A stretch of 64,000 nt of DNA from an uncultured bacterium (GTDB taxonomy: Bacteria > Cyanobacteriota > Vampirovibrionia > Gastranaerophilales > Gastranaerophilaceae). Of the stretch, positions 10,911 to 13,538 are shown one piece after another (the stretch's first letter is position 1; each line of letters begins with the position of its first letter). The translations under genes and the position numbers were made by a program. The DNA is taken from positions 1 through 64,000 of the forward strand of contig CACYVN010000004.1 of NCBI GenBank assembly GCA_902777855.1, written 5' to 3'. The notes under the pieces were generated by a model. It had not been told where the DNA came from, made no database searches, and saw only the letters and a list, made by a program, of their open reading frames with translations.

Positions 10911-11930
10911 TTATTTAACTTTTCCCCGCAGCTGCCCGCAAGCAGCATCAATATCGGCGCCCCGCTCTAACCTTACCGTAACTTTTTTACCGGAATGTTC
11001 CATCAGATACTTAAATTTCATTATAGAATTATTTGAGGGTCTTTGATAATCATTCTTTTCGGTCGGATTATACGGGATTAAATTGATATTGCATTTGATA
11101 TCTTTCAAATACGCTGCAAGCTCCTGTGCACTTTGTAATGTGTCGTTTAAATCTTTTATAAGAAGATACTCGATGGTTATTCTGCGCCCTGTTTTGTCAG
11201 TGTAATTTTTCAGGGCTTTGTGAAGTTCGTCCATCGGATATTTATTTTCAATCTGCATCAGTTTTGCACGCATTTCGTGGTTTGATGCATGAAGTGAAAG
11301 CGCAAGCGTTGACTGCATATCAAGCTGCGCGAGTTTGTTTATCTGAGGAACTATACCTGATGTTGAAACAGTTAATCTTCTTGCACCAATTTGAAAATCC
11401 TCATTAAAAATTTTCATTGCTTTTAAGACGTTATCAAGATTCAAAAGCGGTTCGCCCTGTCCCATAAAAACAATATTTGTAACTTTTAACCCGGTATCAC
11501 GCTGAATTGTTAAAACCTGTTCAATAATTTCTTTGTAATCAAGATTTCTGATAAACCCTCGTTTACCGGTTGCACAGAAGGAACAATTTACTGCACACCC
11601 AACTTGAGAACTTACACAGGCGGTCAAATTTGCCCTGTTATCAAACCGCATTAAAACCGTTTCCACACACTCTCCGTCAGGATATTCCAAAAGGTATTTT
11701 ATTGTTCCGTCAGAACTTACCTGCTTTACTTTAATTTTTACATCAGAAACTTTTGCAACTTTTTTTAATTCATCTCTGAATTTTACGGATAAATCTGTCA
11801 TTTCGTCAATTTCTTTGACTGATTTTAAATAAATCCAGTTATGAATTTGTCTTGCACGGAATTTTGAAGCTCCGAGTTTTGAAGTCAGCTGTTCAAATTC
11901 ACTTAAATTTAACCCAGATAAGATTTCCAT
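10911..11930 (-). CDS. rlmN: 23S rRNA (adenine2503-C2)/tRNA (A37-C2) methyltransferase
   Basis: A 339-residue radical-SAM enzyme that methylates C2 of A2503 in 23S rRNA and A37 in some tRNAs. The cluster motif is C112-x3-C116-x2-C119 in GCAVNCSFCATGKRGF. The second catalytic Cys lies in DAACGQLRG near the end (C331). Other landmarks are FMGQGEPLLN, LTVSTSGIVP, LALSLHAS and INLIPYNP. Length is typical. The start has no evident Shine-Dalgarno; a TATGAT box lies only 11 bp upstream, inside the arm of the inverted-repeat element shared with divergent proB. Confidence 0.96.
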   Translation of the reverse strand: MEILSGLNLSEFEQLTSKLGASKFRARQIHNWIYLKSVKEIDEMTDLSVKFRDELKKVAKVSDVKIKVKQVSSDGTIKYLLEYPDGECVETVLMRFDNRANLTACVSSQVGCAVNCSFCATGKRGFIRNLDYKEIIEQVLTIQRDTGLKVTNIVFMGQGEPLLNLDNVLKAMKIFNEDFQIGARRLTVSTSGIVPQINKLAQLDMQSTLALSLHASNHEMRAKLMQIENKYPMDELHKALKNYTDKTGRRITIEYLLIKDLNDTLQSAQELAAYLKDIKCNINLIPYNPTEKNDYQRPSNNSIMKFKYLMEHSGKKVTVRLERGADIDAACGQLRGKVK

Positions 11931-11943
11931 AAATAAATCTTAT

Positions 11944-12376
11944 CATAAACAATATTATCAGAACTATGTGATAATTTCGCACTTATTGTTCATTTTTTCT
12001 TTTTGTCTTGATGCAAAAAGAAAAAATGAACCAAAAAAGAAAAACACGCTGTCTCACTGCAATGCCTGACGGCATCGCTCCGCCCACCAGATATAAGTCT
12101 ATTACGTTCATACGTTTTTGTCCTGACGGACAAAAATCAATCAGGCGCCTAAAACTACGGCGCCTTTGATAATAATCTCCCAAGCGCGCGGCGTAGTTTT
12201 AGCCGCGCTAAGAGATTTTTGCCTGAAAGGCAAAAACACATATTACTGCGTTAGCAGTCTTATGCCGCCGTTAGGCGGTATTGTAATCAGCGAAGTTTTC
12301 TTTTCTTTGGTTCATTTCTTTTCTTTTGCCTCGCAAACAAAAGAAAAGAAATGAACTACTGATAATATTGTTTATG
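11944..12376. repeat. 433-bp nested inverted-repeat element between rlmN and proB
   Basis: Perfect 18-bp terminal inverted repeats, CATAAACAATATTATCAG at 11944-11961 and its complement at 12359-12376, enclose two diverged copies of one roughly 200-bp unit facing each other. Each copy has, from outside inwards, a perfect hairpin (18-bp stem at 11988-12031; 19-bp stem at 12310-12356), a short GCC/GGC stem, a TTTTTG(T)CC hairpin (12115-12136 and 12216-12236) and an arm CTAAAACTACG (12149-12159; complement 12192-12202). Stem sequences differ but pairing is kept. No protein gene is supported; the frames inside are short and shaped by the repeats. It looks like a MITE or a structured intergenic element. 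Confidence 0.75.
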
Positions 12377-12389
12377 TTATGATAATCAT

Positions 12390-13538
12390 ATGGACAGAAA
12401 AGATTTTATAAACGCAAAAAGAATTGTAATCAAACTCGGCACAAACATTCTGAGAAACGATGAAGGCTTTATTTCTCTGCCAAGAGTTTACACATTCATT
12501 GAGGATATTGCAAACCTTGTTAAATCCGGTAAAGAAGTCATTATTGTAACTTCGGGCGCAGTCGGAATGGGTAAAAAACGTCTGAATTTGCCCGATACAA
12601 AAGGTATTGCTTTGAAACAGGCTTGTGCTGCAATAGGTCAGTGCAAACTGATGTCGGTTTACGAAAACGGTTTTGAAACTTACGGTTTGACCGCCGCTCA
12701 AATTTTATTGACTGAAGATGATTTTTCTGTAAGAGAAAGATACCTGAGCCTGAGAACAACATTTAATAAACTGTTAGAACTCGGTGCAATTCCCATTGTT
12801 AATCAAAACGATACCGTTTCGACAATAGAACTGATAAGCCGTGCACCGGATGTTGAAATGCAGGTGAATTTCTCGGATAACGATAAACTTTCAGCACTTG
12901 TTGCAAGCGAACTTGATGCGGATTTACTTATTATTCTGTCAGATGTAAACGGACTATACAATTCAAATCCGAAAAACAACCCCAATGCACAATTAATTAA
13001 AGAGGTTGAAGAAGTTAATGACGAAATTCTTGCTCTTGCATCAGGTGTTTCTGACGGCGGACGGGGCGGTATGGAATCAAAACTTTTGTCAGCAAGACTT
13101 GTTACCCGTTTTGGCGGAAAAGTTTTAATTGCAAACGGCAAAGAACCATATATAATCAAGAAAATCTTTAACGGAGAGGATTTTGGTACAATGTTTTTAC
13201 CATCTGATGAGAATTTATCCGATAAAAAACGCTGGATTGGATATGCGACAAACATTATCGGCAAAATTATCGTTAATGACGGGGCAAAAAACGCACTCAT
13301 TCAGGACGAAAAAAGTCTTTTACCTATCGGTGTTGTTGATGTTAAAAACGATTTTAAAAAAGGTGATGTAATATCTATCCTTGATGAGCAGGACAATGAA
13401 TTTGCAAGAGGAATAGTAAATTACGATTCCGATGCCTGCAGAAAAGTTATCGGTTGCCACTCTGACAGTATTGTCGAAATTCTCGGATTTAAAAACTATG
13501 ATGCAATCATAACAAGAGATAATATAACAATTTTATGA
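12390..13538 (+). CDS. proB: Glutamate 5-kinase
   Basis: A 382-residue kinase that phosphorylates glutamate in the first step of proline synthesis. The amino-acid-kinase domain has RIVIKLGTNILRND, VTSGAVGMGKKRL, QNDTVS, FSDNDKLSALVA, ILSDVNGLYNSNPKNN and GGRGGMESKL. A C-terminal PUA domain (from about 285) includes KGDVISILDEQDNEFARGIVNYDSD. In ProB the kinase domain carries proline feedback inhibition. No Shine-Dalgarno is visible; a TATGAT/GATAAT box ends 3 to 6 bp before the ATG, so the message may be leaderless. It pairs with proA 80 bp downstream. Confidence 0.96.
   Translation: MDRKDFINAKRIVIKLGTNILRNDEGFISLPRVYTFIEDIANLVKSGKEVIIVTSGAVGMGKKRLNLPDTKGIALKQACAAIGQCKLMSVYENGFETYGLTAAQILLTEDDFSVRERYLSLRTTFNKLLELGAIPIVNQNDTVSTIELISRAPDVEMQVNFSDNDKLSALVASELDADLLIILSDVNGLYNSNPKNNPNAQLIKEVEEVNDEILALASGVSDGGRGGMESKLLSARLVTRFGGKVLIANGKEPYIIKKIFNGEDFGTMFLPSDENLSDKKRWIGYATNIIGKIIVNDGAKNALIQDEKSLLPIGVVDVKNDFKKGDVISILDEQDNEFARGIVNYDSDACRKVIGCHSDSIVEILGFKNYDAIITRDNITIL

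Follow-up and report, generated by a model that had tools for sequence, protein, structure and literature searches.

A hairpin-filled, gene-free element between rlmN and proB of a gut Gastranaerophilales genome, a probable chromosomal variant of the dif module

Dif (pdif) modules have been described on Rep_3/OrfX plasmids and on chromosomes of Acinetobacter (PMC13141974, PMC12907356, PMC11705084) and were regarded in 2026 as unique to this genus (PMC13141974). The Acinetobacter modules carry genes, alternate between C and D polarity in arrays and often possess two different spacers (PMC11705084). Inversion between sites with identical spacers was reported as a rule for these bacteria (PMC13141974, PMC11705084). 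Inverted sites preclude excision, and the movement of a single module is not explained by excision (PMC13141974). CTX-phi and other IMEX also use the host Xer system, and the two inverted dif-like regions of CTX-phi fold in single-stranded DNA into one site (PMC5357621).

The window analyzed here is a stretch of 64,000 nucleotides from a genome of 1.94 Mb in 31 contigs (G000). It contains a palindrome of 0.44 kb between rlmN (10911-11930, minus strand) and proB (12390-13538, plus strand), both of which were confirmed by NCBIfam. An earlier note, made from the sequence, had described this palindrome as an element bounded by perfect 18-bp terminal inverted repeats (11944-11961 and 12359-12376). 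These repeats were recovered, but the functional ends are instead the two 24-bp sites listed in Table 1. The halves are roughly mirrored, as the note had proposed in speaking of two facing copies, and positions 12015-12044 and 12297-12326 are 80% complementary. The outer stems of 18 and 19 bp are perfectly paired, and their sequences differ between the halves. When the module was folded as RNA or as single-stranded DNA of either strand, both ends paired with each other and a row of hairpins formed in the interior. Compared to dinucleotide shuffles, the fold reached z values of -15.9 for RNA and of -14.2 and -15.4 for the two DNA strands. Thus, the palindrome is real and lies far beyond shuffled sequence (z -14 to -16). 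No credible open reading frame was found inside the module, in line with the note. At the gathering threshold, Rfam models detected two tRNAs only in the whole 64-kb window and the module matched none of them.

Table 1. Features of the module and of its immediate surroundings (window positions).
Feature	Position	Strand	Description
Whole module	11940-12380		non-coding, hairpin-rich DNA flanked by two inverted dif-like sites
Left dif-like site	11940-11963	-	outward TTCTGATAA-TATTGT-TTATGATAA; XerC-type arm inside, XerD-type arm outside; arms compared with the candidate dif of G000
Left 6-bp spacer	11949-11954	-	TATTGT on the minus strand
Left subterminal hairpin	11988-12031		18-bp arms GTTCATTTTTTCTTTTTG (11988-12005/12014-12031)
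Central G+C-rich hairpins	12145-12206		GGCGCC / GCGCGC arms
Right subterminal hairpin	12310-12356		19-bp arms GTTCATTTCTTTTCTTTTG (12310-12328/12338-12356)
Right dif-like site	12357-12380	+	TACTGATAA-TATTGT-TTATGTTAT; 6-bp spacer same as in the left site
Right 6-bp spacer	12366-12371	+	TATTGT
Native upstream DNA of proB, adjoining the module	12381-12389	+	GATAAT box also present in G006 and G022

Alignment of 56 module ends yielded the outward consensus TACCGATAA-NNNNNN-TTATGTAAA, in which the conservation of ATAA and TTAT is partly imposed since the end scan demanded both motifs along with a minimum score. The two sites of the window module are inversely oriented and face each other with the XerC arms inside (C polarity). 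Their arms are degenerate, especially the outer D arms. The sequence ATAATATATATTATGTAAA is conserved as a single copy in the genomes of many congeners, apparently at one locus with a common upstream sequence, and this single-copy locus is a candidate for the chromosomal dif of the genus. In G000 the candidate is located at C3:57319 (L253:1020; GATACCGATAATATATATTATGTAAATT) and reads GATACCGATAA-TATATA-TTATGTAAATT. Both of its arms match the arms of the module ends. Solo TATAGT sites were discarded as chromosomal dif, being not conserved in the genus. A candidate dif is now offered for the Gastranaerophilales lineage; earlier prediction of dif had been unsuccessful for each of the five Cyanobacteria tried (PMC3025954). 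In genome G113, which belongs to genus g13, dif has ..CAGTGATAA and one element likewise contains CAGTGATAA, a hint that the module arms may track the dif of their host. Furthermore, G000 encodes two XerC/XerD-type recombinases, both of which satisfy the PRK00283 model for tyrosine recombinases.

The search for further copies that the note had called for revealed that the window palindrome is not unique. Within its own genome 109 matching pieces were found, which include about 20-25 distinct places with identities of up to 93%. The end motif ACATAA-N6-TTAT occurred 91 times in G000, compared to 32 matches for a reversed control pattern. The modules are about 0.16-0.7 kb long, and those of G000 stand singly. 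Their interiors are mosaic, and some copies have only the ends in common and contain other hairpins. Many contigs of this genome end inside modules (C1, C2, C3, C6, C9, C10, C11, C13, C14, C16, C18, C22 and C23). Assemblies of the group therefore break at modules and the copy numbers are underestimates. Related modules occur across the order: among 238 of its genomes, a subset from several genera showed strong enrichment of the site pattern over the control (for example, 24 versus 1 in G089, 26 versus 0 in G137, 20 versus 1 in G154), and in G054, a member of another family, the counts were 49 versus 2. A survey of polarity found C modules in genera g1, g2 and g6 and D modules in g13 and g23, and a single spacer usually prevailed within a genome. 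Two of the relatives compared below correspond to known bins, G006 to the roe-deer rumen bin RGIG4922 and G023 to RUG13741 (100% identity over kilobases).

The 6-bp spacer varies among copies but tends to be the same on the two sides of any one copy. In G000 the two spacers were identical in 13 of 18 pairs (expected 1.84), a conservative count since the 18 include one spurious (L102 1325) and one doubtful pair (L134). In other Gastranaerophilales, where orthologous copies are not all independent, agreement was observed for 26 of 33 pairs (expected 2.79). None of 100,000 permutations reached the observed number in either set. Spacer identity amounted to 0.86/0.91 within copies versus 0.56/0.53 between copies. 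The corresponding values were 0.63 versus 0.61-0.63 for the C arm and 0.72 versus 0.72 and 0.81 versus 0.79 for the D arm, and the flanks and adjacent sequence showed little or no within-copy excess of agreement. Only the spacer matches between the two sides, which is a signature of recombination rather than of general pairing. The earlier claim that structure is kept while sequence changes holds for the hairpins, which have several stem sequences, each perfectly paired, and fails at the module ends, where general structural covariation was rejected. Modules with unequal spacers, for example C4:86184 (TATTAT/CATATA), have the look of recombinants. Two modules of G021, at C5:125.1k and C5:130.6k, seem to have swapped halves, with roughly 5 kb between them inverted.

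Among module loci shared between species, two showed an interior that is flipped with respect to the flanks; neither is the window copy. At C8:69978 the interior and the variable base of the C arm (TT/TA) changed sides between G000 and G021, whereas the last base of the D arm stayed with each flank (left ..AAA, right ..AAG). Thus, the switch point lies inside the site core, within about 22 bp. At C1:237117 of G023 the subterminal sequence TCATTGAGAGATTAAAACTTTCTACCTG is located on the left in one species and on the right in the others (G021 and G006 were compared). This orthologue comparison covers a handful of loci in draft assemblies, possibly of mixed strains. Inversion in place is the expected outcome if Xer acts on two inverted sites whose spacers are equal, and host XerCD is a strongly, though indirectly, supported agent of it.

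Empty counterparts of modules were detected in congeners. The cleanest was C8:69978, where G023 reads GGATTTTTTTT|GTAAGG and the filled site GGATTCTTTTT-ACATAA...TTAT-GTAAGG, without target duplication. For C5:130575, empty in G022 (CTTATATAAAAACG), a duplication of 0-3 bp is ambiguous since the site is palindromic. In the window, ..TATTGT-TTAT directly adjoins the stretch that G022 has natively at proB (GAAAGTTATGATAAT). These targets carry a few bases of the outer part of the XerD arm only, unlike normal Xer targets. Several further loci (C7:140076, C8:85373 and the G021/G006 locus L213/L323) were rejected as empty sites because they were not clean. C5:125.1k was set aside because a dif-like core of equal spacer (ATAA-TTCGCA-TTAT) is already present there in G022 and could represent a target, a remnant or a footprint. 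The many dispersed copies and the empty sites bear out the proposal of a non-autonomous mobile element.

Adjacency of rlmN and proB was not found in the relatives examined. As the two genes are not neighbours in close relatives, the module, within the interval 11931-12389 of the window, marks a synteny breakpoint, and the G000 modules at C7:130187, C7:282172 and C7:293895 are likewise situated at breakpoints. This coincidence suggests that the dimer-resolution system may drive genome rearrangement. The inverted repeats end 13 bp from each start codon, in agreement with the 14 bp given earlier. The statement that the arms hold the only -10-like boxes was in part incorrect: the GATAAT at 12381-12386 belongs to the native upstream sequence of proB and is present in the element-free G022 and G006. 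Sigma-70-like matches in the module are few and weak. An outward promoter for rlmN or proB within the module is nevertheless plausible, since rlmN in G000 has lost an upstream stretch which is conserved in G006, G021 and G023.

Three other explanations have to be weighed. The element could be a classical MITE, that is, a relative of an insertion sequence that has undergone deletion and is mobilized by a DDE transposase, with its likeness to dif due to chance. Short length, non-coding content, inverted ends, high copy number and the AT-rich TTAYRTAA-like surroundings of one empty site would all suit such an origin. We consider it unlikely, because the empty site at C8:69978 lacks a target duplication, the two arms match those of the host dif, the central variable hexamer of the repeats is the same on either side of a copy, and interiors have inverted without leaving their locus. 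Neither an autonomous partner, a circular form nor a transposon with these ends was seen, without a dedicated search for such a transposon. Of the MITE proposed earlier, mobility is thus retained and the classical type is not. Homogenisation of palindromes in general, by hairpin-mediated repair or gene conversion, together with homologous recombination between the arms and without involvement of Xer, would account for huge palindromes whose subterminal hairpins are alike in both halves. It would not confine matching to 6 bp and leave C arms, D arms and neighbouring sequence without a clear within-copy excess of similarity, and the narrow switch inside the dif core at C8:69978 as well as the match of the arms to host dif also render it improbable.

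The third explanation is a domesticated regulatory element, which as a cruciform, a bidirectional terminator or an RNA would control rlmN and proB. The very stable folds, the proximity to both start codons and the missing rlmN upstream region are compatible with this role. In G006, G021, G022, G023 and G024, however, no module was present upstream of proB or rlmN, and in G027 a separate module near proB occupies a different position, a few bases further upstream. Copies stand at many other loci, and no Rfam model matched at the gathering threshold. No evidence that was found supports the regulatory cruciform of the note, and a regulatory role of this kind appears very improbable.

We are therefore rather confident in reading the element as a non-coding dif module of C polarity that resides on the chromosome and is operated by an Xer-type mechanism. 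The sequences themselves document the dif-like ends, the spacer rule, the interior inversions and the empty sites. For its agent, XerCD, and its route of insertion we infer the following course. Two inverted dif-like XerC/XerD sites with XerC arms inside and equal 6-bp spacers enclose mosaic hairpin DNA, and the host XerC/XerD pair would invert this interior. Spacer identity would be required for strand exchange by XerC/XerD and maintained by it. As single-stranded DNA the palindrome would fold so that its two ends pair into one double-stranded dif-like site, which XerC or XerD would join to a target that looks like one half of a XerD arm; replication would then complete the second strand, in the manner of the folded attP of CTX-phi or of integron attC. 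Recombination between modules would rearrange the chromosome and reshuffle the interiors. As both ends copy the dif of the cell itself, housekeeping recombinases of the host can probably flip and spread the modules. A folded single-stranded intermediate is favoured for insertion, because the ends paired in the single-stranded fold of every module tested and CTX-phi behaves in this way (PMC5357621). The spacers match and the arms do not, which lends no specific support to the folded hairpin, so that the single-stranded route is one option; a cointegrate route is possible.

Outside the order, Gracilibacillus timonensis was observed to contain inverted dif-like pairs of D polarity, 0.2-0.8 kb apart, among the matches listed for named genomes. 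The pairs at L319, L336, L344, L353, L382 and L391 have the XerD arms inside and enclose palindromic DNA, and two pairs fold with z values of -14.6 and -8.0. Among the matches listed, spacers were identical in four of seven pairs, which is not significant as the spacers of this genome are too alike. No spacer-matched inverted pair occurred among about 85 other loci picked solely for one strong site, nor in 39 viral contigs with a site, and no plasmid or phage record similar to the Gastranaerophilales modules was found. Viral or plasmid carriers were discarded on these grounds.

A different arrangement was noticed in Ectobacillus panaciterrae, Priestia endophytica and Paenibacillus (L325, L348, L371, L361). 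Here, direct series of dif-like sites on the same strand (TACCGATAA-N6-TTATGTAAAC) have varied spacers and often lie some 20-60 bp (up to about 190) past the stop codon of an open reading frame on that strand. This layout resembles an array of integron-style cassettes based on dif-like sites; a literature search found nothing on such arrays. Separately, a short palindromic insertion at L145:7340-7430 (GGCTGGATTGCTTCGCCTGTCGGCTCGCAATGAC), absent from G022, perhaps represents another small repeat family.

In comparison with the described systems, the Gastranaerophilales modules resemble those of Acinetobacter in their two inverted XerC/XerD sites, 6-bp spacers, C and D polarities and inversion between equal spacers. 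In contrast, they are non-coding, filled with hairpins, single and chromosomal, usually have equal spacers and are inserted at non-dif sites. The window element has the inverted, host-dif-like XerC/XerD-type sites and the 6-bp spacer of a dif module; it carries no credible open reading frame, and modules stand singly in G000 rather than in an array alternating with D modules. It is therefore a variant of the dif module and not a plain member. To judge from the Gracilibacillus sequences, similar non-coding inverted pairs of the opposite (D) polarity occur there too. Single gene-free modules with empty counterparts and in-place inversions in gut Gastranaerophilales, together with the Gracilibacillus D pairs, make it testable how single modules move. 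We tentatively entertain, as possible though doubtful, a class of gene-free elements in at least two phyla that would transpose as a dif mimic folded from single-stranded DNA and be inserted outside dif by the dimer recombinases. If true, this would explain how single modules with non-excisable inverted sites move at all. With CTX-phi and other IMEX the modules share inverted dif-like regions able to fold in single-stranded DNA into one site, but they have no phage genes, are not inserted at dif and have no known replicating form. Integron attC sites are long imperfect palindromes whose ends pair into recombinase boxes and whose stems vary while pairing is kept. The boxes of the modules are, in contrast, arms of the host dif, two complete sites flank each module, and neither an integron integrase nor a cassette array is associated with them. 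MITEs and the neisserial dRS3/NIME mosaic repeats are small and non-coding, with inverted ends and mosaic interiors; the modules differ from them by the lack of a target duplication at the cleanest empty site and by dif-like ends with a matched spacer.
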